Assembly: GCF_022606355.1 (NCBI RefSeq)
Contig: NZ_JAHHZQ010000002.1
Location: 434,001 to 498,000, forward strand
Length of the DNA: 64,000 nt
DNA from: Leifsonia shinshuensis
GTDB lineage: Bacteria; Actinomycetota; Actinomycetes; Actinomycetales; Microbacteriaceae
Direction: 5' to 3'
This document shows positions 2,225 through 16,096 of this stretch, in pieces (the stretch's first letter is position 1; each line of letters begins with the position of its first letter). The notes below the pieces were generated by a model. That model saw only the letters and a list, made by a program, of their open reading frames with translations. It was not told the DNA's origin and ran no database searches. The position numbers and the translations under genes were made by a program.

Positions 2225-3427
2225 CTACTGCAACTCCCGCCACACCTCGAGGTGACCGGGGTTGCTCGCGCCGGTCGGCTTGTCGACGTTGGCAAGTCCC
2301 TTCACCCATTTCGACGCCCGGTTGATTGGCCGGTGTGCGACCACAAGTCGGTCCTTGGCGGCCATCTTCGCTTGCAGGTCTCCGACCGACTTCACGTAGT
2401 GCAATCCGGCTAGCTCCGGCTTGTGGGAGCCCGCGTCGATTTCGTCGAGGAACCGGGTCGGGAACGCTCTATGCTCGGGCAGAACGCGAATCCGTTCGAA
2501 CACGCTGTGTTCCATCGTGTGCAGCAGGAACCGATCGAAGATTCGTGGTGTTGCCGGCGGTGCCTTCTGTCCCTTTCGACGGCCAATCCGTCGCTGCCGG
2601 GCGAATGCCTGGTCGGTGGCCGATGCCCCAGTGGAGAACCCGGACGCTCCGTACGCCCCCATGAGCCATCCGGTTAGGCCGGAGTTCGGAAGGAATAGCC
2701 GCTTCCCTTCGATCCGTGCTGTGGAGGCCAGCCTCATGTAACCGCGGAGGATCGCGTCGTCGGTGAGCTGACCGTACGAATTCGTCATCTCCGGCCACCA
2801 GAACCGCAAGTACCACTGCTTTTCGTTGGACTCGACAAGTTCACGCAGCAACAGGTTTCGTAGCTGCCGGTCGAGCAGCCATTCCTTGTCCAAGGTGAGG
2901 TTGACGAACATGGGCTTGTCGCCGACGATGTCGCGGCTCTCGCGCGCGACCGCCATCGCGGCGTCGAGCGCAGCGGCCGCGTTCGTGGTGGAAACCCACC
3001 CGTTCGCGGACAGTGCAACGGTCGCGCCGACGCTGTACTGCGCCTGAATAACCCGCGAGATCCAGTTTCGGTCCACACCGACCGGGAGATCTTCGTAGAA
3101 GGCAAATTTGGGCGGCGTCTTCGCCTCGTCGATGGTGTCCATTCCGGGCCAGGCCGACTTCGGGTGCCGGTAGAGGACGGGGTCGGCAAGGCGGAGCGGA
3201 ACCTCGTCTAGCGGGCCGAGATACTCGCTCAGCGTCTTCTGGGTCTTGCCCCACATCTTGATCGATGTGCCAACTCCGAGGTCTTTCCCGTGGTCGTCGA
3301 TCAGGCCCGCAAGGACCTCCGGCGTTCGTTTGTTTCCCCGTGCGCTTCGCTGCACGATGAAGGTTGGAACCTTCCCCCGCAGGATCTTGTCGAGGGAAGC
3401 GGTCTTCGGCGTGGACAGGTCGGTCAC
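2225..3427 (-). CDS. Kinase-coupled protein of unknown function, possibly an alpha/beta barrel
   Basis: A 400-residue protein starting at GTG (3427), with its start overlapping the kinase stop by four bases, so the two are made together. I do not recognise the family. The middle part alternates strands and helices in barrel fashion: ATVALSANGWV (135-145), KPMFVNLTLD (171-180), WYLRFWWP (205-212), KRLFLPNSG (242-250) and a glycine-rich GASGFSTGAS end (260-269) like a phosphate-binding turn. No membrane segment or signal peptide is present. Because of the tight coupling it is a likely substrate, sensor or effector of the kinase. The barrel reading is inference from the pattern of hydrophobic strands. 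Confidence 0.6.
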   Translation of the reverse strand: MTDLSTPKTASLDKILRGKVPTFIVQRSARGNKRTPEVLAGLIDDHGKDLGVGTSIKMWGKTQKTLSEYLGPLDEVPLRLADPVLYRHPKSAWPGMDTIDEAKTPPKFAFYEDLPVGVDRNWISRVIQAQYSVGATVALSANGWVSTTNAAAALDAAMAVARESRDIVGDKPMFVNLTLDKEWLLDRQLRNLLLRELVESNEKQWYLRFWWPEMTNSYGQLTDDAILRGYMRLASTARIEGKRLFLPNSGLTGWLMGAYGASGFSTGASATDQAFARQRRIGRRKGQKAPPATPRIFDRFLLHTMEHSVFERIRVLPEHRAFPTRFLDEIDAGSHKPELAGLHYVKSVGDLQAKMAAKDRLVVAHRPINRASKWVKGLANVDKPTGASNPGHLEVWRELQ

Positions 3428-4272
3428 TTCATAGCCTTTCGAAGGTCTTTGAGGGCGCGCTTGGCGGATCCGCGTTCGAACGCGTCCTCGCTAAGCAGCC
3501 GGAGTATGACCTTCCGAAGGCCAGGGTCAACGTGTGCAGGGAGCGGCGCCGGCGGACCGGTGATCTCCTCGGCGATGTCGTCTTCGCTCTTGCCTGCGTA
3601 TGACGTCACGAATGGGTGCTGGCCGGTGAGCAGCATGAAAAGGACCACCCCACACGCCCACAAGTCCGAACTCTTCCGCGCCCGTTCACCGCGCAGCTGC
3701 TCCGGCGCCATGTAGATCAGCGAACCGACTCGCTGCGGGTAAGCCGTCATCGTGAGGTCGGAAGCACCCTTCGACAGGCCCATGTCGATCAGCACGGGTG
3801 TGTCCCAACGGCCGTCTCGGAGAATGATGTTCGCCGGTTTCAGATCCCGATGGACACGTTCGACGTCGTGGAGCTGCTTCACACCGTGGAGGAGTTCGAC
3901 ACCGAAGGCAAGGACTTCCTTCTGGCTCGGGAGCCCGGATTCAGTAACGTTCGATGCGACGTCTCCGCCCGGGAGGTACTCGCACACCAACGTCGTGTGG
4001 GCTGTACCGGCGACAGCGACCTCGCGAACCTCATGCAGTCGCGCAAACCGTCGGCCGTGAACGACGGTGAGCCCGTCGATCTCCCGCTGGACGAGCCGGG
4101 CGTTGAAGTTCTTCGGGTCGAGGAACTTCACCGCGCAAACCGTGGGTTGGCCTCCGACGTCTACCGAGTCGACTCGCCAGGTCTCCCCAAAGGTTCCTTT
4201 GCCAAGGAACTTCACTTCGGCTGCGTCGAATGCCGCGCGCACATCATCGGCTGCCAGATTCGGCTTCGCCAT
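3424..4272 (-). CDS. Soluble Hanks-type Ser/Thr protein kinase
   Basis: A 282-residue kinase, almost only the catalytic domain: glycine loop GKGTFGE (24-30), ATP lysine K49 in AVKF, helix-C glutamate E64, catalytic HRDLKPAN (141-148), metal-binding DMG (163-165, where DFG is usual), and APE (189-191). All catalytic residues are present, so it should be active. There is no transmembrane helix and no PASTA or other sensor domain, unlike the housekeeping kinases at 17.5 and 19.4 kb. It starts at ATG 4272 behind AAGGGGAAAG and leads a two-gene operon. Accessory kinases of this kind occur in phage-defence loci (Stk2, PglW); that role here is inference. Confidence 0.9.
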   Translation of the reverse strand: MAKPNLAADDVRAAFDAAEVKFLGKGTFGETWRVDSVDVGGQPTVCAVKFLDPKNFNARLVQREIDGLTVVHGRRFARLHEVREVAVAGTAHTTLVCEYLPGGDVASNVTESGLPSQKEVLAFGVELLHGVKQLHDVERVHRDLKPANIILRDGRWDTPVLIDMGLSKGASDLTMTAYPQRVGSLIYMAPEQLRGERARKSSDLWACGVVLFMLLTGQHPFVTSYAGKSEDDIAEEITGPPAPLPAHVDPGLRKVILRLLSEDAFERGSAKRALKDLRKAMK

Positions 4273-4289
4273 CTTTCCCCTTGCTCAAC

Positions 4290-4305
4290 TAGACATTCCT
4301 GTCTA
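4290..4305. promoter_or_regulatory. Palindrome in the kinase operon promoter
   Basis: The inverted repeat TAGACA-N4-TGTCTA lies 17 bases upstream of the kinase ATG (minus strand), where it would overlap the -10 region of its promoter. It is a likely binding site for a dimeric regulator. The sequence does not match the other operators in the island. Confidence 0.45.
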
Positions 4306-4520
4306 TCGGCATCACGGGTCACGGTCCAAGACCACGAACGGGGGGCGATCAGGAAGTTCGCCACCTGACGCGAACGGGCAAGTCGATGCCCCAGCTCGGT
4401 GATGAAGCCCACGCTCACCACGCCAGATCAAGCCACGCGATGATCACGTTCGCGCACCGACGTACAGGACCGCTGCTCCTGCGCGGCGCCGACTGACGTG
4501 CGGTCAAAACAACACAGCCT

Positions 4521-4540
4521 GCTGTAACTACAGCTATGAT
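4521..4540 (+). promoter_or_regulatory. Operator copy 1 (GCTGTAACTACAGC) plus -10 TATGAT
   Basis: A perfect 14-bp palindrome with half sites GCTGTA and TACAGC at 4521-4534, followed without a gap by a TATGAT -10 box at 4535-4540. No good -35 is visible, so the palindrome takes the spacer position. The ribosome binding site AGGGAGGTG follows at 4549-4557 in front of ATG 4564. Two other copies of the palindrome sit before the genes at 7,335 and 8,326. Confidence 0.65.
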
Positions 4541-4563
4541 TCCCGTCAGGGAGGTGCGCCCCA

Positions 4564-5076
4564 ATGGATGACTGGTCGCTCGTGGGCGAACTGTGCACGA
4601 TGTTTGAGATCAATCCGGCTGGCCTGATGGAGGAGGCCTTCCTCCGAGATGTTTCGGCGCGCGACATCATTGATGGATTCACGCGGACACTCACCTACCT
4701 GCGAATACATGGGGCCGGCGAAGCCTCCGAGGCGCCCGTTTCCGACCTAGACGCGATGCCGCCAGGAACCTTCGACGTGCGCATTGTCCTCAACGACGAG
4801 ATATGGGTCGACATCTTCCGTAGGAAGCACTTCATCGCGGTGATGTCGGCAAGTCACGCTGCCGCGGTGATCGTGTTTCTGAAGAAGCGGGCGAACGAGT
4901 TGTTCGAGATCCTCGGCGATGGCACCACTGCGAATGAATGGCTGGAGTCGACGCCACTGATCAACGCGCTCAGGCGGCGGCTTCGGGACCTGGGGATCAA
5001 CGTTCGTGAAGCTGCGTCAGCGACGAATCAACTCGATCACCCGAACCAAACGCGGTCCGAGGGCGACGGCCGATGA
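4564..5076 (+). CDS. Protein of unknown function, first gene of operator-1 operon
   Basis: A 170-residue protein from ATG 4564 with a strong ribosome binding site. The first 50 residues are mostly helical; residues 65-105 form a beta-rich part (FDVRIVLNDEIWVDIFRRKHFIAVMSASHAAAVIVFLKK) and the C-terminus is helical and polar. There is no signal peptide or membrane span. I do not recognise a family. It overlaps the next gene by four bases (ATGA) and is under the repeated GCTGTAWCTACAGC palindrome, which ties it to the genes at 7,335 and 8,326. Confidence 0.7.
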   Translation: MDDWSLVGELCTMFEINPAGLMEEAFLRDVSARDIIDGFTRTLTYLRIHGAGEASEAPVSDLDAMPPGTFDVRIVLNDEIWVDIFRRKHFIAVMSASHAAAVIVFLKKRANELFEILGDGTTANEWLESTPLINALRRRLRDLGINVREAASATNQLDHPNQTRSEGDGR

Positions 5077-5699
5077 CAGCGCGTGGACGCGACGACGATC
5101 GCGCACGCTTGCAGCGCACCGTCGGCTACCTGCTGGATCGACTCGGCACCCCCCTTGTTTCCTACCTCGCGGTGACGCCTAACAAGATGGACGCGTGGAT
5201 GTGGGCGGAGCCAAGCACTGGCCCGACGCCCGAGCAAGAGCGCCGCGTTCGTTGCGCGTACCAGGCGTGGAAGATTCTCGAACGGTGGAAGCGAGACGAT
5301 GCGACAAAGGCCTGGTTCGCTGATTTCGACCCCGTTCTCGGAAGCTCACCAGTCGACCGGATTCGTTCCGACGAATTCGACGTCGTCATCAGCGCGGCCA
5401 AGCGTGCCGCCGACCTCGAACTGGTGAGATACGCCGAGCGGGGTGACCCGGTGGTCATCTATGACGTGATGCGCGAAGCCGCCAATCGGTGCGCCGCGGC
5501 CTACGTCGCCCGGATCACTCGCGATCCAGATGAACATGCAATCGACCAGGTCCGTCGGGTCTGGTCGTATGCCGAGGGGATCGATCCACGTGACGCCCTG
5601 GCTCAACTTCGAGCGACCGATCTTCTGTACGACCTTCGTGGGCGTCTGGTCGCCGGAGAGGACCCGGACCTCGATGAGCTCTTTGAGAGCGACACGTGA
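5073..5699 (+). CDS. ParS/MbcA/Xre antitoxin-like protein
   Basis: A 208-residue protein, coupled to the upstream gene by an ATGA overlap. Residues 13-45 look like a degenerate helix-turn-helix (VGYLLDRLGTPLVSYLAV). Residues 75-115 (KAWFADFDPVLGSSPVDRI then RSDEFDVVISAAKRAAD) match the plan of the ParS/MbcA C-terminal domain, where a W/F-x-x-x-N/D-P-x-L-G-x-x-P-x-D-x-L core binds a RES-type toxin. The remaining 95 residues are helical and unrecognised. No RES toxin is encoded next to it, so it may act as a regulator rather than as an antitoxin. The assignment is by motif only. Confidence 0.5.
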   Translation: MTARGRDDDRARLQRTVGYLLDRLGTPLVSYLAVTPNKMDAWMWAEPSTGPTPEQERRVRCAYQAWKILERWKRDDATKAWFADFDPVLGSSPVDRIRSDEFDVVISAAKRAADLELVRYAERGDPVVIYDVMREAANRCAAAYVARITRDPDEHAIDQVRRVWSYAEGIDPRDALAQLRATDLLYDLRGRLVAGEDPDLDELFESDT

Positions 5700-5764
5700 G
5701 CGCCAGGGATGGACAGCGACGGGACTCCGCGTTCCGAAATCAACCCCGGACGGAGAACAACGTG

Positions 5765-6025
5765 ATGCGACGGGTTCAGATCTGGCTTCGACCGGAGGAG
5801 CGGAGCCTTCTCGATGCCGAAGCAGCGCGCACGAGCCGCTCGATCTCGTCACTGGTTCGAGATGCCGTTGACCGAAGATACAACTCGCACAGTCTCAGCG
5901 ACCGGGACATCGACGCTATCGATTCGGCGACGGGCGCGTGGGGGGACGCTCACGATTCGGACGGTGAGGAGTACGTCAACCGCTTACGCTCCGGCAGCCG
6001 TCTCCGGGATGTTGACGGAAACTGA
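5765..6025 (+). CDS. Ribbon-helix-helix (VapB/CopG-like) antitoxin, orphan
   Basis: An 86-residue protein. The start at ATG 5765 is chosen because GGAG (5752-5755) lies nine bases upstream and because the ribbon strand RRVQIWLRPEE then begins at once; a GTG at 5696 overlapping the previous stop would add an unrelated polar tail. Residues 2-45 fit a ribbon-helix-helix DNA-binding fold, and the C-terminal stretch GAWGDAHDSDGEEYVNRLR resembles the toxin-wrapping tail of VapB antitoxins. No PIN-domain VapC follows: the next 390 bases hold no convincing gene. It is either an orphan antitoxin or the survivor of a deleted pair. Confidence 0.7.
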   Translation: MRRVQIWLRPEERSLLDAEAARTSRSISSLVRDAVDRRYNSHSLSDRDIDAIDSATGAWGDAHDSDGEEYVNRLRSGSRLRDVDGN

Positions 6026-6412
6026 TCCGGCCCGTTCAGCGCCGGGCAACACCACTCAATCTACTCGGGCCATCCTTCGCGAATGCGCGGCAGCGAATCC
6101 TCTGCTGTCTCGAAAGATCCTGCGTAGTCATTCGACGCTCGTCGCAGAACTTCATCACGCTCAGCGTGCTGACCGTTCGCGACAACTTCACCTGACTTCT
6201 CTCGACCGTTGCCGTCATCCCGCCCGTCGACCACTGTGGGTGGAGGCACAGATTCCGTTTCCCTCGAATCAGAGTCCATCGGTGGCGCCTTCCAACTCAT
6301 TCCTGCTCTGGAGCCCAGGCTACGCCGCCACGTTGCCCCAGTTCGAGGAACAGATGACCACTCAAGCGCCAAAACCTACAGCTGAAGCCCTCCGTCCGCG
6401 CATATCTGACGC
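6026..6412. other. 387-bp gap without a convincing gene
   Basis: An open frame on the plus strand (from ATG 6009, stop at 6416, touching the GTG of the next gene) and one on the minus strand (6061-6372) both cover this stretch, but neither protein looks like a real fold: the plus frame is rich in His, Arg, Pro and Ser as out-of-frame translations are. It may hold the decayed toxin partner of the antitoxin at 5765, or the promoter of the recombinase at 6413. Confidence 0.4.
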
Positions 6413-7255
6413 GTGAGCCACTCCACCGACTTCGTCACCGCCTGCATCACCGACGCATCCATCGCCTCCTACGAGCCATCGAAACTCAAGCCGGCACTGA
6501 CCACCTTCACCGAGTGGTGTTCCAAGAAGGGAATCCCACTCGAGCGCACGGTTGTCTTCGAGCGCGCCAACATCGCCCGTTTCGTCGAGGTGGGACTTCC
6601 GACGCTCGCCTCGGCCACGCGCGGGAACTACCGCTCTCAGCTCCTCCGCGTCGCCGAAGCCCTGCTCGACGAAGCACATGCTCCGCGCCCGCTTTCAGCG
6701 CTCGCGCCGTCGGACCCGAGCGTCCCCTATACAACGGACGAGCAGTCACTCCTGCGCGAGTGGGCTCGCAAGGAGAAGAAGGCTCGACGGGCAGATGCCG
6801 AAATTCTGGTCGCGCTCGGGCTGGGCGCCGGCCTTTCGGCCATCGAGATCATGAACATCCGAGCTCATGATGTGCTGCAGTCAACGAGCGGTGCGGTCCT
6901 CGTTCGCGTAGCAGAAGGACGGACACGAACCGTTCCGCTACTGCGCCGTTGGGAGCGAGCGGCGCTTCGGCGCGCGGCCGAGCTCTCCGGCGACGACTAC
7001 CTGTTCATTCCGGGGCGCTCTGGTGCGGGCAAGAATCTGATCTCGAACTTCGTCGCCCGCGGAGGCAACAAGATCCACGTGCAGACGCAGCGCATGAGAG
7101 CCGCGTGGATCGTGACCCATCTGGCTGCGTCCTCCCCTCTTCCGGAGCTGGTGAAGGCCGCTGGCGTGGATTCGCTGGAGGCCTTCACCCGGTACTTGAG
7201 GTACGTCCCCGCCCGCGAGACAACTGAATCGGTGCGCTCGCTCCGGGCTGCGTAG
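6413..7255 (+). CDS. Tyrosine-recombinase-fold protein A, imperfect active site
   Basis: A 280-residue protein (GTG 6413, no clear ribosome binding site). Residues 15-90 form an N-terminal SAM-like helical DNA-binding domain; residues 105-270 follow the catalytic domain of phage integrases. The usual motifs are altered: the first arginine motif reads GAGLSAIEI with Ser142 in the arginine position; the H-x-x-R box reads Q226-R-M-R229, keeping only the arginine; the end YLRYV supplies possible nucleophiles Y261 or Y264. It is a paralogue of the protein at 8,818 (shared GLPxxxxVxF, RGNYRSQLLR/RRNYRSMLLR, RTVPLL/RSVPLL, AAWIV/STWIV). It may have lost cleavage activity or use a variant active site. 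Confidence 0.7.
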   Translation: MSHSTDFVTACITDASIASYEPSKLKPALTTFTEWCSKKGIPLERTVVFERANIARFVEVGLPTLASATRGNYRSQLLRVAEALLDEAHAPRPLSALAPSDPSVPYTTDEQSLLREWARKEKKARRADAEILVALGLGAGLSAIEIMNIRAHDVLQSTSGAVLVRVAEGRTRTVPLLRRWERAALRRAAELSGDDYLFIPGRSGAGKNLISNFVARGGNKIHVQTQRMRAAWIVTHLAASSPLPELVKAAGVDSLEAFTRYLRYVPARETTESVRSLRAA

Positions 7256-7270
7256 CCCGACCAAGCAAGG

Positions 7271-7323
7271 TTGTTCCTCAGGCAAGCTGCTGCTATTGTT
7301 ACCTCACCCGCTGTATCTACAGC
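7271..7323 (+). promoter_or_regulatory. Promoter and operator copy 2 (GCTGTATCTACAGC)
   Basis: TTGTTC at 7271-7276 and TATTGT at 7294-7299 are spaced by 17 bases and form a credible promoter, with transcription expected to start near 7306. The 14-bp palindrome lies at 7310-7323, just past the expected start point, where a bound protein would block RNA polymerase. The gene starts at 7335. Confidence 0.65.
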
Positions 7324-7334
7324 AGGGCGAGTTG

Positions 7335-7631
7335 ATGATGGACGAGGTTCACTACTACCGCACTCAAGCGGAGGCGGACGCCAAGCGTGAGTTCGCGATC
7401 GCATACATTCGCGACCTCGAGCTACTGATGCCCGCCGGCTCTGTCAGCTTCGACTACGGGACGATCTTCGTCGGACGCACCGTTTCACAGCTCGTCGGCT
7501 GCGTCGCCGTCACGATCCCAGGCATCAAGCCATCACTGACCGCCCTCGAGTTCGTGCTCGACGAAGACGCCGAGGTGTACGTAGATGCGCTCCTCTACTA
7601 CCGGGCGAAGCTCCTCGGAGGTGAGCGATGA
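7335..7631 (+). CDS. Small protein of unknown function, first of a two-gene operon
   Basis: A 98-residue protein from ATG 7335 (ATG 7338 is equally possible), behind AGGGCGAG. A longer frame upstream would run through the promoter and operator and is rejected. The protein is helical at the N-terminus (residues 8-30, many Ala/Glu/Arg) and then beta-rich (GSVSFDYGTIFVG, LVGCVAVTIPG), ending in a Tyr-rich helix. No family is recognised. It overlaps the next gene by four bases (ATGA) and is under the palindrome shared with the genes at 4,564 and 8,326. Confidence 0.65.
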   Translation: MMDEVHYYRTQAEADAKREFAIAYIRDLELLMPAGSVSFDYGTIFVGRTVSQLVGCVAVTIPGIKPSLTALEFVLDEDAEVYVDALLYYRAKLLGGER

Positions 7632-7921
7632 CGCTCGATCGAATCCCCGATGATCAAGGGCGCTACCGCGTGACTACCCGCTCCGGCTCCGTGTACGTCT
7701 TCGACCTTTCCTCACACACCGTCACCCGAACACCAGGAGAGAGATCCCATCACGACATCTGGGACGGGATGCACCAACTGCGCATGATCATCCAGGGGCA
7801 GGTGGGGACATCGGGGTTCTGGACCCTGGAGCCCGATTCGCCCGAGCTCGATGAGGTGTTCGACTACTTGTGGCAGGTCACGTCGCCGATTATCGCCATC
7901 GAGGCGATTATCGAGGAGTAG
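7628..7921 (+). CDS. Small acidic protein of unknown function
   Basis: A 97-residue protein coupled to the previous gene through an ATGA overlap. The N-terminal half looks like a small beta sheet (GRYRVTTRSGSVYVFDLSSHTVTRTP), a pattern common to small domains of phage and island proteins; the C-terminal half is helical and acidic (ELDEVFDYLWQVTSP). I do not recognise it. Its stop lies six bases before the stop of the convergent XRE-type regulator. Confidence 0.6.
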   Translation: MTLDRIPDDQGRYRVTTRSGSVYVFDLSSHTVTRTPGERSHHDIWDGMHQLRMIIQGQVGTSGFWTLEPDSPELDEVFDYLWQVTSPIIAIEAIIEE

Positions 7922-7927
7922 GCGATG

Positions 7928-8206
7928 TCATTCCTCGAAGTACCCAGGCCACAGTGTCTTCTTGAAGGCCGCTTCCAGCCGGGCCACCAGTCGGGCATCA
8001 GGCCACGTGCGACCTTCAAGAACGAGTCGCAGCGAATTCCGATCCACGCCGGCCCGCTTCGCCGTCGAGAGGACACTGTCGCCGCCCATCGCCTCTTTGA
8101 GGTTGATTACGAAACGGCGCGCAGCTTCGTGCGCATGGTCACTCATCCGTGCGGTCGGCCAGTCGTCGAGCCCAAGGTTCGGACTAACACGCAACGGACG
8201 GGCCAT
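7928..8206 (-). CDS. Small XRE-like helix-turn-helix regulator
   Basis: A 92-residue protein. Residues 25-85 (AARRFVINLKEAMGG, STAKRAGVDRNSLRLVLEG, WPDARLVARLEAAF) have the five-helix layout of XRE/Cro-type regulators, with GVDRNSLRLVLEG as the recognition helix and turn. The start at ATG 8206 has no ribosome binding site, but TAGCGT lies just upstream on the minus strand, so the message may be leaderless; an internal ATG at 8146 is an alternative. It is divergent from the gene at 8,326, and the spacer holds operator copy 3. It is the best local candidate for the protein that binds the repeated palindrome; that link is inference. Confidence 0.65.
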   Translation of the reverse strand: MARPLRVSPNLGLDDWPTARMSDHAHEAARRFVINLKEAMGGDSVLSTAKRAGVDRNSLRLVLEGRTWPDARLVARLEAAFKKTLWPGYFEE

Positions 8207-8291
8207 GCGACCACGCTAGACGATGGGCGCACCACATGGCGCGATCGCAGCACCATCGCCACTCCCTTCACATCGGCAACCGCCTCGCGCT

Positions 8292-8305
8292 GCTGTATCT
8301 ACAGC
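8292..8305. promoter_or_regulatory. Operator copy 3 (GCTGTATCTACAGC)
   Basis: The same 14 bases as copy 2, placed between the divergent XRE-type gene (start 8206) and the gene at 8326. It ends 20 bases before ATG 8326, and a weak -10 candidate TAGTGT follows at 8308-8313. It could serve both directions. Confidence 0.65.
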
Positions 8306-8325
8306 AATAGTGTCTCATAACGGCC

Positions 8326-8754
8326 ATGATGACAACCACACTTCGAACTCCAATTCACCTCCGCCAGAAGTGGCAGATCGAACTTGGCCCGTATCTACTT
8401 CTCGACGAACTCGCGCGACAACTGCATGTTCCCGCTAGCCGAGTGAGGGAACTCGCGGTGCAGAAAGAGATCCTCGAGGTCCACGACGCACGAGGGACGA
8501 TCCTCTATCCAGTCTTTGCTCTCGCAGACGCCAGCGCCGACAGCACTGGGTATCGTGTGCTCCCCAAGTTGAGGTGCCTGCTTGAGGTGCTCGCGCGCTC
8601 CTGCGAAGAAGAATGGCTCTGGGCGCTCTGGGTAAGCGGCTGGAACCCGAGACACCACGGCAGCGCACCCATCGACGCCCTCCTACAGGGTGACGAATCG
8701 GTCCTCGCCGCGGCACGGAACGAAGACTGGTCGTGGACGGCGCACTACTTCTGA
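8326..8754 (+). CDS. HTH plus ParS-like domain protein (antitoxin or regulator type)
   Basis: A 142-residue protein; ATG 8326 is followed directly by a second ATG at 8329, and no ribosome binding site is seen. Residues 22-65 (LLLDELARQLHVPASRVRELAVQ, then a strand pair ending YPVFAL) resemble an excisionase/MerR-type helix-turn-helix. Residues 78-140 (VLPKLRCLLEVLARS, ALWVSGWNPRHHGSAPIDALL, DESVLAAARN) match the plan of the ParS/MbcA toxin-binding domain. It shares this second domain type with the protein at 5,073 and the operator with the genes at 4,564 and 7,335. No toxin gene lies beside it. Confidence 0.55.
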   Translation: MMTTTLRTPIHLRQKWQIELGPYLLLDELARQLHVPASRVRELAVQKEILEVHDARGTILYPVFALADASADSTGYRVLPKLRCLLEVLARSCEEEWLWALWVSGWNPRHHGSAPIDALLQGDESVLAAARNEDWSWTAHYF

Positions 8755-8817
8755 GCGCACGTGCGCCTTCGTTCATAACTCACACCTGGAGCCACCCGAG
8801 CTGGCATAGCCGGAGGC

Positions 8818-9945
8818 ATGACCCACGCCTCCACGAGATCGCGCCGACCGCACGCAGCTCAATCACCCCTCCGCACTCCCGAACAGGTGCGCCTCGACGA
8901 GCGCCTCTCCTTCGGCGACACGACCTGGGCGCGTAGCCATGCATCCGATCTCGCCGACGCCGTCGGCGCCTTCGCGCGACAGACCGGATCGGTCGCCGCG
9001 CTCCTGACCCGCATCGGTCACAACGCGCTGCCCCTCGAAGCCCGTGAAGCGATGACGACGTACAAGCCTCGCCGCGACACCGAGACGTGGCCGCGCATCG
9101 CCGAGTTCGTCCGAGACGCCTGCTCGCTCGCCGCACCCCAGACCGCCTACTCGGCAAAACTCCTCGTCACCATCACGACCGCCTTCGTGACCTGGGCAGT
9201 TGTGGAACGTGGACTGCCACTCCAGACAGACGTCATCTTCAGCCGTCAGGTCATCAACGTCTACGCCACCGAAGAGAACCGCGGCCGCAGCGAGGGAACA
9301 CGACGCAATTACCGATCAATGCTGCTCCGGATCTCACAGGTGCTCCTACCGACGGAGCAAGGCGCTTCGATGACACCTCTCAGCCGAAAGGGCATCGCCC
9401 ACCCATACGGCCCGAAAGAGATGGAAGAGTTCCGGTCCTGGGCTCTCGGGCAGAAGACGCAGGCCAAGCGTCGCAAGGCGATGCTGATGCTCATCCTCTG
9501 CGCCGGAGCAGCCCTGCGGCCAGTCGAGATCATCGACGTCGCGGCAGAGGACGTCCTCATCGACGACCTCGGCGTCTTCATCAACGTCCGCGGAGGAACC
9601 AATCCACGCTCGGTCCCACTCCTCGCAGAGTGGGAGGACTGGTGCATCGCTCTGCTCGAAGACGCAGACCAAGACGTACCTCTCTGGGGTCCTCCGAACC
9701 GCAGCGACGGCGGCAACCTGCTCAGCAGCTTCACCCAGTACACGATCGGCAAGCACCCGCGAGGCGACCGACTGCGATCGACCTGGATCGTCGGAAGGCT
9801 TCAAGCCGGCGTCCCGATCAAGGAACTCTTCCGAGCACTCGGCTTCGACAAGTTCGAGAATCTCCCCCGTTATCTCGCCTTCGTCCAACAGATGGACGTC
9901 GCGTCCTACCGCTCCGCCATCCGTAACAGTGGCGGTGACAAGTGA
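8818..9945 (+). CDS. Tyrosine-recombinase-fold protein B
   Basis: A 375-residue paralogue of the protein at 6413, with about 85 extra residues at the N-terminus. From residue 95 on it aligns with protein A along its length. Its first arginine motif is intact (GAALRPVEI, R234), the H-x-x-R box reads D317-R-L-R320 with Asp in place of His, and RYLAFV offers Y352 as nucleophile. It thus keeps more of the catalytic set than protein A. The start ATG 8818 has GGAGG only one base upstream, too close to work well, so initiation may be elsewhere, for example ATG 9055. It overlaps the transposase-like gene by GTGA. Confidence 0.7.
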   Translation: MTHASTRSRRPHAAQSPLRTPEQVRLDERLSFGDTTWARSHASDLADAVGAFARQTGSVAALLTRIGHNALPLEAREAMTTYKPRRDTETWPRIAEFVRDACSLAAPQTAYSAKLLVTITTAFVTWAVVERGLPLQTDVIFSRQVINVYATEENRGRSEGTRRNYRSMLLRISQVLLPTEQGASMTPLSRKGIAHPYGPKEMEEFRSWALGQKTQAKRRKAMLMLILCAGAALRPVEIIDVAAEDVLIDDLGVFINVRGGTNPRSVPLLAEWEDWCIALLEDADQDVPLWGPPNRSDGGNLLSSFTQYTIGKHPRGDRLRSTWIVGRLQAGVPIKELFRALGFDKFENLPRYLAFVQQMDVASYRSAIRNSGGDK

Positions 9946-11699
9946 GCGCCAACCGCGAGGACCCGGAGAAGCTGCTTACCCGACGCATGCTTGAAACCTT
10001 CGGGGTCGCAAGCAGTGACGAACTGACGCGAGAACGCGTCAAGTACGGCCCGATGTCCAAGGCGTACCTCGCGCTCGCTGCACGCATCGTCGACAACTCC
10101 GGTGTGGTGGCCCGACTGGACGAGTGGGACTCTGCAAAGCGCAAGAGCGGCGCCGGTCGAAAGCCCACCATCCCGTACCGCGCGGTCCTCATTCTCCTGC
10201 TTATCCACATCCAGATGGGTCTCGGCGCCAACTACCAGGAAATCGCCAACACGCTCCACTACCGATTCGACGCGGAGCACCGATCGATGCTCGGTATCAA
10301 CGATGCGGCCACCTCGCGTGGCGGCTGGTACCAGCGGATGCGACGGTCGACCGTCAACCTGCTCAACCTCATGGACCCCTACCCTTCGCGGAGGAACAAG
10401 CGCCTCGACCAAGCTGAATTCGCCGCACAGCGTACGAAGTGGGACAGCGTCGAAGGACGCATCGCCACAAAGGTCGCGATGGTGAAGCTGGACTGGATGT
10501 GCGAACAACTCGTACACGCAACGGTGCGAATGCTTCCCTCGGACATCTGGGCCCGCTACAACGGCAACATCGCAATCGACGCCACCAAGCTCGAAATCGC
10601 GGGGCGCCCTAACTCTCCAGATGACCGTCGCAAACGAACGAACGCCGACCCTTTTGCCGAGCGCTACCGCCGAGAAGGCAACCACAACGGCGAGGGCGCG
10701 AAGACCGACGTCGCCGCGTATGAACTCGAGAACGCTGTCATGGTCTGGAACAACCCAGGTGAGCGGAACCTCTTCCCTTCTCTGACGCTCGCTGTGACGT
10801 TCCACCAGCCAGGACGCCTGGTCGGACACGGACTTCGCCTCGTGGAATCCGTCGAGAGACTCGGCGTCAGGCCCGGGATGATCATGGCGGACCGCGCCTA
10901 CAACGGCGAGCAAGCGAAGAACTTCCAGATACCGGTACGCCTGAATGGCTGGAAGCTGGCGATCGACTACAAGAAGGACGAGCTCGGCATCCAGAGCGAA
11001 TACAAGGACCTCATCCTGGTCGAAGGCACTTGGTATGTCACCACCATGCCTGAAAACCTCATCGAAGGAATGAAGGCAATTCGATCGGAAGTCGAGGATC
11101 CGGACACGGGCGAAAAGCGGACTGTAATCGATGAGGAAGCCCTGAAGACGCTACTCAAGAACCGCAAGCCGTACCGCATGATTCCGAAAGGTCGACCTGA
11201 CGCTGACGGCTACCAGCGCTACAGCTACCCACGTCCGGGCACCTACATCGCCTACGACCGTGGCTCAAAGAAGATGATCACCCCGACGACGCCAGGAACG
11301 ATCACGATTCCGATCGACGCGGGAACACCTCCGAAGGGCAAGAAGCGGAAGGAGAATCCGCCTGCGGTCAAGTACCTGCAGGAGTTCCCATACATGTCGC
11401 CCGAACACCAGGCCTTCTACGGTATGCGCAGCCTCGTAGAGTCGTCCCACAAGATGCTCAAGGAGGCCGGGCGCGAAGACATCGCCAACAAGCGCAAGCG
11501 CTCGGGGCGGGGGTACGCCTTCCACTACCTCGCAGCGGCTCTCGCCGCTGCCTCTACTAACCTCCGCAAGATTGAGTCCTTCTTCGTCCAGGACCACGAA
11601 CGCAGCGTCGAGCCGAAGCACCGCATCCGACGTCGAAAGACCCTGACCGGCACGACGCTCGCTCGAACCGCGACGACGGCAACAGCGCCGCCCGCCTAG
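9942..11699 (+). CDS. DDE transposase-like protein
   Basis: A 585-residue protein from GTG 9942, coupled to the recombinase gene. Residues 75-150 look like the helical DNA-binding part of IS4/IS1182-type transposases (QMGLGANYQEIANTL). The RNase-H-like core follows with D213 (NIAIDATKL), D317 (MIMADRAYNG) and, after a long inserted segment (about 340-475, Lys-rich with Pro/Thr repeats), E500 in SLVESSHKMLKEAG. This gives a complete D-D-E triad in the right order. The C-terminal tail is Arg/Thr-rich. The family is not one I can name; the size and the coupling to a tyrosine recombinase are unusual for an insertion sequence. Confidence 0.7.
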   Translation: MSANREDPEKLLTRRMLETFGVASSDELTRERVKYGPMSKAYLALAARIVDNSGVVARLDEWDSAKRKSGAGRKPTIPYRAVLILLLIHIQMGLGANYQEIANTLHYRFDAEHRSMLGINDAATSRGGWYQRMRRSTVNLLNLMDPYPSRRNKRLDQAEFAAQRTKWDSVEGRIATKVAMVKLDWMCEQLVHATVRMLPSDIWARYNGNIAIDATKLEIAGRPNSPDDRRKRTNADPFAERYRREGNHNGEGAKTDVAAYELENAVMVWNNPGERNLFPSLTLAVTFHQPGRLVGHGLRLVESVERLGVRPGMIMADRAYNGEQAKNFQIPVRLNGWKLAIDYKKDELGIQSEYKDLILVEGTWYVTTMPENLIEGMKAIRSEVEDPDTGEKRTVIDEEALKTLLKNRKPYRMIPKGRPDADGYQRYSYPRPGTYIAYDRGSKKMITPTTPGTITIPIDAGTPPKGKKRKENPPAVKYLQEFPYMSPEHQAFYGMRSLVESSHKMLKEAGREDIANKRKRSGRGYAFHYLAAALAAASTNLRKIESFFVQDHERSVEPKHRIRRRKTLTGTTLARTATTATAPPA

Positions 11700-11823: not shown

Positions 11824-11860
11824 AAGGGCCGGATCGACGTTTCCAGTCGATCCGGCCCTT
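11824..11860. terminator. Strong hairpin terminator between island and tRNA-Leu
   Basis: A perfect 15-bp stem (AAGGGCCGGATCGAC with GTCGATCCGGCCCTT) around a seven-base loop, followed by a T-rich run on the plus strand. It can end transcription from the transposase-like gene on the plus strand and, read on the minus strand, from the tRNA gene. Confidence 0.8.
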
Positions 11861-11920
11861 CTTCGTTCGTCCGAGCGAATTTCGAAATCCCCCTTCGGAG
11901 ATTCTGAAATCCACCCTCCG

Positions 11921-12004
11921 TGCGCGAGGGGGGACTTGAACCCCCACGCCCTTGCGGGCACTGGCACCTGAAGCCAGCGCGTCTGCCAATTCCGCCACTC
12001 GCGC
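11921..12004 (-). tRNA. tRNA-Leu (anticodon CAG)
   Basis: An 84-nt type II tRNA on the minus strand: acceptor GCGCGAG pairing with CTCGCGC, D arm, anticodon stem CTGGC/GCCAG around the loop TTCAGGT, a long variable arm, and the T loop GTTCAAG. The CCA is not encoded. Its 3' end faces the island. Confidence 0.95.
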
Positions 12005-14715: not shown

Positions 14716-16096
14716 CGTGAGGGAACGCAAGCAGGCCAGGCCGGCCACCGGCCCGGTCAAGCGGTTGCGCCTGCCCGCGAAGCTGCGGAACCTCGAACTG
14801 CTGCTGCTGCTCATCGCGTGCGGGATCAACGCGGCGGCAGTCGTCCTGGTGCAGCTCGGCGCGCTCGGACACGTCGACCTGACCCTCGTCTACCTCGGGG
14901 CGGGACTGTCCGTGCTCGTCATCGGCATGCACATCGCGCTCCGGTTCGTCGCGCCGCAGGCCGACCCGTTCCTGCTGCCGATCGCGACCGTGCTCACCGG
15001 CATCGGCATCGCCGAGATCTACCGCATCGACATCCACTACAAGGATTCGGGCTGGGACAGCGCCGGTGTCAAGCAGATCGTCTGGGCCGCGCTGGCGATC
15101 GCGTGCGCCATCGCCGTCGTGATGATCATCCGGAATCACCGCGTGCTTCAGCGCTACACCTACATCTTCGGTCTGGCCGCCCTCGTGCTCCTGCTGCTGC
15201 CGATGCTTCCCGGAATCGGCCGCGAGATCTACGGCGCGCGTGTGTGGATCGGCATCGGCCCGTTCAGCTTCCAGCCCGGCGAGATCGCGAAGCTCTGCCT
15301 CGCGGTCTTCTTCGCTGGCTACCTCGTGCAGGCCCGTGACTCGCTCTCCATGGTCGGCAAGAAGTTCCTCGGCATCCGCTTCCCGCGCGCCCGCGACCTC
15401 GGCCCGCTGCTGATCGTCTGGCTGATGTCGATGGCCGTCATCGTCTTCCAGCGCGACCTGGGCACCGGCCTCCTGATCTTCGGGCTCTTCCTCGTCATGG
15501 TCTATGTCGCGACGGCGCGGATCAGCTGGGTCATCCTCGGCCTTCTCCTGATCGTCGGAGGGGCTGTCGTCGCCAGCCAGCTCCTTCCCTACGTCAACGA
15601 CCGCTTCGCGAACTGGCTCAACCCGTTCGCTCAGAAGGTCTACGACGAGCAGGGCGGGAGCTTCCAGCTGGTGCAGGGCCTCTTCGGGCTGGCGCACGGC
15701 GGGCTGATCGGAACGGGGCTCGGCCAGGGCCAGCCCTGGGTCACCCCGGTCTCGCAGAGCGACTACATCATCGCCAGCCTCGGTGAAGAGCTCGGACTGG
15801 CCGGCCTGTTCGCGATCTTCGCGCTGTACCTCATCTTCGTGGCACGGGGACTGCGGATCGGCTTCGCCGGGCAGGACGACTTCGGAAAGCTGCTCGCGGT
15901 CGGCCTCTCGTTCACGCTGGCACTGCAGTGCTTCATCGTCATCGGAGGCGTCACCCGCGTCATCCCGCTCACGGGCCTCACGACCCCGTTCCTCGCGGCG
16001 GGCGGTTCGTCACTGGTGGCGAACTGGATCATCGTCGGGCTCCTCCTGCGCCTCTCCGACACCGTCCGCAACCAACCCCGTCTGGTGGTGAGCTGA
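14702..16096 (+). CDS. rodA: RodA-type SEDS peptidoglycan glycosyltransferase
   Basis: A 464-residue FtsW/RodA/SpoVE protein with about twelve membrane helices. The conserved loop with DLGTGLL and the region PITGLTLPFxSxGG (here PLTGLTTPFLAAGGSS) are present. It polymerises lipid II into glycan strands and works with the class B PBP encoded next to it. ATG 14702 overlaps the end of pstP by 14 bases; a GTG at 14717 in the same frame is an alternative start. Confidence 0.95.
   Translation: MPPSDVRERKQARPATGPVKRLRLPAKLRNLELLLLLIACGINAAAVVLVQLGALGHVDLTLVYLGAGLSVLVIGMHIALRFVAPQADPFLLPIATVLTGIGIAEIYRIDIHYKDSGWDSAGVKQIVWAALAIACAIAVVMIIRNHRVLQRYTYIFGLAALVLLLLPMLPGIGREIYGARVWIGIGPFSFQPGEIAKLCLAVFFAGYLVQARDSLSMVGKKFLGIRFPRARDLGPLLIVWLMSMAVIVFQRDLGTGLLIFGLFLVMVYVATARISWVILGLLLIVGGAVVASQLLPYVNDRFANWLNPFAQKVYDEQGGSFQLVQGLFGLAHGGLIGTGLGQGQPWVTPVSQSDYIIASLGEELGLAGLFAIFALYLIFVARGLRIGFAGQDDFGKLLAVGLSFTLALQCFIVIGGVTRVIPLTGLTTPFLAAGGSSLVANWIIVGLLLRLSDTVRNQPRLVVS

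Follow-up and report, generated by a model that had tools for sequence, protein, structure and literature searches.

The question raised by this locus is why one 14-bp palindrome stands in front of three operons in a 64,000-nucleotide stretch of the Leifsonia shinshuensis genome (the window, meaning the whole stretch of DNA that was analysed), and which protein reads it. A first-pass annotation of the same DNA had described the three copies as marking a regulon of unknown genes and ParS-like proteins, perhaps switched on as one, and had named an XRE-type protein among the candidate binders. Our analysis places all three palindromes inside a single element of ~16,175 bases (~16.2 kb) at the 3' end of a tRNA-Leu gene, and we consider it probable that they are the operators of x7928, a 92-residue XRE (HTH_3) protein encoded in the same element (7928..8206, minus strand; genes are designated here by their lower window coordinate) and the proposed repressor of that element.

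The palindromes and the island around them

Operator 1 (GCTGTAACTACAGC, 4521..4534, plus strand) lies directly upstream of TATGAT (4535-4540) and precedes the operon that begins at 4564, operator 2 (GCTGTATCTACAGC, 7310..7323, plus strand) lies slightly beyond the transcription start expected from TTGTTC-17-TATTGT (7271-7299) and precedes the 7335 operon, and operator 3 (also GCTGTATCTACAGC, in its 16-bp form TGCTGTATCTACAGCA; 8292..8305, plus strand) occupies the divergent spacer between the XRE gene on the minus strand and the ATG at 8326 on the plus strand, where TAGTGT is found at 8308-8313. These promoter elements were read by eye, and a sigma-70 scan of 4300-8900 found no consensus promoter, so their placement is putative. 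The three copies, their spacing to the ATGs at 4564, 7335 and 8326 and the absence of another full copy from the window are all as first described, and in each of the three copies of GCTGTAWCTACAGC the centre reads WC in the plus orientation.

In the whole genome (4,775,750 bases in 11 contigs) GCTGTAWCTACAGC occurs three times, at 4521, 7310 and 8292, and nowhere else. The looser pattern CTGTANNTACAG finds the same three sites only (4 + 4 matches for its reversed control), and allowing two mismatches yields 13 + 10 matches, of which the three sites, each counted on either strand, make up six; the reversed control then has 80 + 82. With all three copies of a 4.78 Mb genome clustered inside 3.8 kb, a chance origin of the palindromes is ruled out. 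Copies scattered over the core genome would have spoken against a regulon, and the scan gives none outside the island. Elsewhere the exact pattern was found in 4 of 299 genomes of the family, i.e. the window's own and three in which it accompanies different genes, while the reversed pattern was commoner in those 299 genomes (about 36 matches, by our own count of the table). A hairpin acting in the RNA was also considered and rejected, because copy 1 precedes its likely -10 element as placed by eye.

The element runs from L007:15742 to window position 11916, with the 6-bp sequence TCCGTG at both junctions, and its insertion point is the 3' end of tRNA-Leu(CAG) (11920..12004, minus strand). The corresponding site is empty in a genome of the same genus, G777, where the sequences matching L007:13458-14888 and 15694-15741 run directly into tRNA-Leu, and the continuity of that chromosome into the tRNA gene gives the element its ends and its size of about 16,175 bases. 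The tRNA 3' end as the point of insertion and the unoccupied site in a relative together identify it as a tRNA-integrated genomic island. Among 11 other same-genus loci at tRNA-Leu, eight lose their match to the window at 11917-11919, adjoining the tRNA 3' end, and three (L136, which is an element of Leifsonia virtsii, L142 and L144) match beyond that point.

The XRE protein, its relatives and their dyads

With 17.4 bits, x7928 scores below the Pfam cut-off of 23 for HTH_3. Seven of its relatives were scanned, of which three lie above that cut-off (L059 25.8, L112 31.7, L114 29.5), two below it (L040 18.3, L110 19.2) and two without a match (L009, L048). A single-sequence structure model of x7928 (mean predicted local distance difference test score, pLDDT, 71.6, and about 81-85 across residues 31-80) has four helices, at residues 23-40, 42-51, 56-63 and 71-84, and is that of a helical helix-turn-helix (HTH) fold whose predicted recognition helix is residues 56-63, starting at R56. 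The positions of the sites fit a protein that would bind dyad operators beside its own and its target promoters. Judged from sequence, x7928 is the best candidate among the binders first named, and the arrangement fits three operons that would be switched on as one.

A palindrome is retained at the matching gene in a relative of the window's own genus; a lack of conservation in relatives would likewise have spoken against the regulon. Genome contigs scanned with an alignment of p8326, the first gene after operator 3, yielded one locus, L009 in Leifsonia virtsii, which lies at tRNA-Leu and holds homologs of the two recombinase-like genes r6413 and r8818, of p7628, x7928 (x hereafter for the family), p8326 and the transposase-like t9942, all in the gene order of the window; p4564, p5073, p5696 and p7335 were not found in it. 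In front of its p8326 homolog, at the matching position, stands GCATTGCTGTTTCAACAGCAATGC (GCTGTT-TC-AACAGC), in which both arms are changed relative to the window; they differ together, so the symmetry is kept. A weaker related dyad, CTGTAGAAACAG (L009:9263-9280), precedes the 7628 homolog. The metagenomic protein P0003, 65% identical to p8326, has an N-terminal extension reading LLYLQQ, and the window frame over the operator 3 palindrome also reads LLYLQQ, there followed by a stop codon, with the distance to the aligned start equal in the two; this fits a conserved palindrome, known here from the P0003 protein and not from its DNA. P0008, an 84% relative of p7335, is probably on the same contig as P0003, since the contigs given for the two are both 4874 bases long. 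Scans of viral contigs with p8326 and with its alignment, and a genome scan with p4564, gave nothing useful, and neither CTGT-N4-ACAG nor x was found in two further same-genus regions.

Homologs of r8818 occur in 47 of 398 family genomes. In the 20 regions fetched around the best of these matches a t9942 homolog is present in 19, and with L009 added a tRNA gene of one of several kinds is found in 18 of 21 loci, mostly directly past the t9942 homolog. A profile built from 11 x proteins found x homologs in 49 of the 398 genomes, and its 55 good matches, less seven at >85% identity, leave a non-redundant set of 48; an order-wide search found matches in 12 of 396 genomes, the window's own family accounting for seven. 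A tblastn search of 50,697 phage records with the L112 x protein came back empty. The exact 14-bp palindrome occurs in at least 120 stretches of viral contigs, and no x homolog was found at the 80 of these loci that were checked. Several of the r8818 loci have a dyad upstream of x with a 2-base centre, at a similar distance and with other arms, e.g. GCTGTAGCTACAGC in L040, 74 bp upstream of the x gene. Dyads with at least 7 of 8 arm pairs, centred 50-95 bp upstream of x, occur in 7/48 homologs; 300 single-base shuffles averaged 1.15 and never exceeded 6, and the counts for four control windows were 2, 0, 1 and 0. At 6 or more of 8 pairs the count is 22/48, with a shuffle mean of 9.8 (standard deviation 2.7, maximum 18). 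An element-specific dyad was assigned upstream of x in 17 of the 48.

Some elements repeat their own type of dyad at a second place. The best own-type second site reached at least 13/16 in 8 of the 17 elements, compared with a mean of 3.2 when sites were permuted among elements (20,000 permutations, p 0.0033). At 14/16 or better such sites are present in seven, namely the window, L045, L059, L111, L112, L114 and L118; in L045, L059, L112 and L114 they are near a recombinase gene, and in the window they stand ahead of the cargo operons. The predicted recognition helix and the operator arm also vary together. Where its first residue is Arg, the sixth position of the 8-base arm is G in at least one half-site (6/6), and where it is His, that position is A in both half-sites (11/11); with L061 and L063, whose dyads were placed by position, left aside, the counts are 4/4 and 11/11. 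On a tree built without the helix columns, helix residue and half-site base each require three changes. We take this association as a lead that points to x as the binder.

The x module is found beside differing transposition genes. Near x and its dyad, L110 codes for a protein that carries the C-terminal domain of Mu transposases, and in L111 a large serine recombinase is encoded, so the module is not tied to one recombinase, which in turn speaks against a recombinase as the binder. On two Curtobacterium plasmids (L145:8378-9282, L146:8378-9270) an x homolog directly follows a nucleotidyltransferase gene, annotated as such in one of the two records and without annotation in the other, and the candidate dyads upstream of that gene, with 6/8 and 7/8 pairs, are suggestive only.

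Weighing x7928 as the binder

A number of observations weigh against assigning the palindromes to x7928. Dyads with 6/8 pairs are frequent in any case, since the control windows contain 7 to 16 of them compared with 22/48 upstream of x, and 31 of the 48 homologs have no assigned dyad. A co-directional gene lies directly upstream in 8 of these 31, the others being unexplained, and even this cause is not clear, since the same arrangement is found in 3 of the 17 with a dyad. The assignment was made by hand: the dyads of L061 and L063 (5/8 pairs) were located from their homologous position, a family-like 6/8 dyad was preferred to an 8/8 one in L074, and six 6/8 dyads (L095, L097, L098, L102, L103, L109) were omitted as unlike the rest. 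Adding the four omitted dyads that go with Arg or His lowers the association to 6/8 for Arg-G and 11/13 for His-A. The tree is weak, and a sign test cannot decide, because its well-supported branches hold one independent pair only. An own-type second site of at least 13 was not found in 9 of the 17 elements, and that score is also attained in 46 of the 272 pairings of an element with another element's site; seven of those nine elements hold another element's type at 13 or more, and the types therefore overlap. At six x loci outside the family, at order level, no dyad was convincing by eye. The genome that contains L009 also has p4564 and p5073 relatives at another place, L267, where no CTGT-N4-ACAG dyad accompanies them. 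Finally, in two of the three other family genomes with the same 14-mer, both of one other genus, it is found (L005:1501-1514, L006:1501-1514) ahead of an open reading frame (ORF) that by eye resembles an alcohol dehydrogenase, and both genomes are absent from the x-homolog matches among the 398.

These points have to be set against what other binders would explain. It is conceivable, and in our judgement unlikely, that the palindrome is bound by p8326, as an activator or autorepressor encoded directly after operator 3. Its position beside the operator and a weak match to Rv2175c_wHTH (E 0.015, below cut-off) would suit such a role, but p8326 was not found by tblastn in L040, L043, L045, L046, L048, L050, L059, L110-L115 or L118, all of which have x and an assigned dyad. 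We give still less credence to the palindromes being binding or crossover sites of a recombinase and not operators. The own-type second copies near recombinase genes in L045, L059, L112 and L114 could be read that way; a 2-bp centre, however, is too short for crossover by a tyrosine recombinase, dyads are present upstream of x also where the nearby gene is a serine recombinase or Mu-type transposase, and the element ends beside tRNAs bear other repeats. It would be equally surprising if the island genes had come to use the sites of a regulator that serves the whole host or has nothing to do with the element. The 14-mer ahead of the alcohol-dehydrogenase-like ORF might be cited for this; against it, this genome has zero copies outside the island, and the arms upstream of x vary by element at a roughly constant position. 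Control by x7928 thus seems to us the probable explanation of the three sites.

Cargo, ends and the proposed circuit

Part of the first description of the regulon stands and part does not: the sites do mark out a regulon, one that stays within the island, but its proteins are not recognisably ParS-like, and it does not consist of unknown genes only, because operon 3 also encodes a tyrosine-recombinase-like and a large transposase-like protein. The first gene after operator 1, p4564 (4564..5076, plus strand; 170 residues), has two relatives besides itself in a protein search and homologs in L041, L051-L053 and L267. It is overlapped by p5073 (5073..5699, plus strand; 208 residues; no Pfam or NCBIfam family), whose homolog adjoins that of p4564 in L041 and L267. 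On the reverse complement of L267 the two relatives, 48% (p4564) and 36% (p5073), lie side by side at 3469-4674, some 9.5 kb from the element core, and are accompanied by a second p8326-like match. Next come p5696, a small ribbon-helix-helix-like protein (5696..6025, plus strand; phrog_3431 Arc-like repressor, E 1.3e-4), and, after a gap of about 390 bp and only possibly under operator 1, r6413, the first tyrosine-recombinase-like protein (6413..7255, plus strand; phrog_1 integrase, E 3.5e-4; 33% identity to r8818). Operator 2 is followed by the cargo genes p7335 (7335..7631, plus strand; 98 residues; three relatives besides itself in a protein search) and p7628 (7628..7921, plus strand; 97 residues; homologs in L009, L041, L045, L051-L053 and L059).

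In the third operon, p8326 (8326..8754, plus strand; 142 residues) has as relatives P0002 and P0003 from the protein search and L009 from the genome contigs. Beyond its weak wHTH match it has only a CENP-B match that is likewise below cut-off, and the ParS/MbcA toxin-binding domain is matched by neither p5073 nor p8326 in Pfam, which removes Xre/MbcA/ParS antitoxin membership from consideration. The same operon holds r8818, the second tyrosine-recombinase-like protein (8818..9945, plus strand; phrog_1 integrase, E 1.2e-4; Pfam Phage_integrase below cut-off), and t9942 (9942..11699, plus strand; 585 residues), for which neither an NCBIfam family nor a Pfam match above cut-off was found and which is called transposase-like because of motifs that, by eye, resemble DDE motifs. 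Further cargo consists of a Ser/Thr kinase (window 3424-4272, minus strand), matching the PADLOC mad6 and PD-T4-6 kinase models, and a NACHT protein (L007:15991-18309, minus strand), and the two are possible defence cargo. Pfam scans recognised no conjugation genes in the element. They also found, among the island ORFs scanned, no family of the RepSA, FtsK/SpoIIIE and Spd genes that mark an actinomycete integrative and conjugative element (AICE) as described in PMC11706625, so the island is not classed as one.

The two ends of the element (L007:15735-15765; window 11895-11922) have in common the short inverted sequences ATCAGAATCT and TTCAGAATCT, located immediately inside the 6-bp TCCGTG repeat. 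By eye, many element ends beside tRNAs (window 11860-11919, L009, L040-L059) show two similar short motifs ~20 bases apart, in several of them of the form NTTTCNNNAAATN, which vary between elements and are possible recombinase arms. Exact repeats of the tRNA 3' region of at least 12 bases were absent from the stretch searched.

From these arrangements we infer binding, repression, autoregulation and a trigger for x7928. A dimer of the protein would bind GCTGTA-NN-TACAGC within or beside each core promoter and, by covering it, hold off the operons p4564-p5073-p5696 (possibly with r6413), p7335-p7628 and p8326-r8818-t9942, while from operator 3, in the divergent spacer, it would probably also control its own gene. 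Entry into a repressor-free cell would be the classical way of lifting such repression; a cell without x7928, whether because the protein was lost or because the element has only just arrived, would then express the cargo along with the recombination genes. The comparison of relatives suggests that several related elements may use the same repressor family, each with its own operator sequence, as its own lock and key. Tentatively, and with more doubt than belief, one may extend this to a family of mobile elements, many at tRNA 3' ends, which carry tyrosine recombinases and an unclassified transposase-like protein and share a repressor module whose operator specificity diverges through changes in the recognition helix. 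The same tentative proposal has the module taken over by regions that carry a serine recombinase or a Mu-type transposase. If such divergence took place, each element would have its own immunity type, a resident would silence its own kind, and a newcomer with another code would be switched on at entry.

Three unexplained palindromes thereby yield a control circuit that is open to testing, in a type of tRNA-linked island that is common, and the relatives supply natural pairings of repressor and operator whose arms differ. Should the lock-and-key idea be true, it predicts which islands can coexist in one cell, and one switch would join the cargo of an island to its recombination genes.

No description of this element family or of its operator was found in the open-licence PubMed Central literature. 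Among the closest known systems, ImmR is a small XRE-type repressor that the integrative and conjugative element ICEBs1 encodes and that acts on the promoters of its own element, much as is proposed for x7928; the two are likened by description, and the window element differs in having no conjugation genes recognised by Pfam scans. Lambdoid repressors have a C-terminal cleavage domain, for which x7928, at 92 residues, has no room. The likeness to the lambdoid repressors 434 and 933W lies in the HTH, where residues of the recognition helix, the first included, contact operator bases (PMC3317979). The defence-island repressor RptR resembles the repressor proposed here in being an island-encoded dimer that acts through short palindromes at its promoter; its sites are 6-bp TAGCTA sequences, in contrast to the 8-2-8 dyads with variable arms described here, and the name XRE is absent from the text searched (PMC12255303). 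RtaC and RtbC are Xre family proteins that regulate transposition of type I-F3 CRISPR-associated Tn7-like elements, and they share with the present proposal both Xre family control of a mobile element and a burst upon entry into a new cell (PMC11406308). This comparison too is by description, since those elements are CRISPR-guided and Tn7-like, whereas the elements described here have recombinase pairs at tRNA ends and, in one relative, an x gene near a Mu-type transposase.

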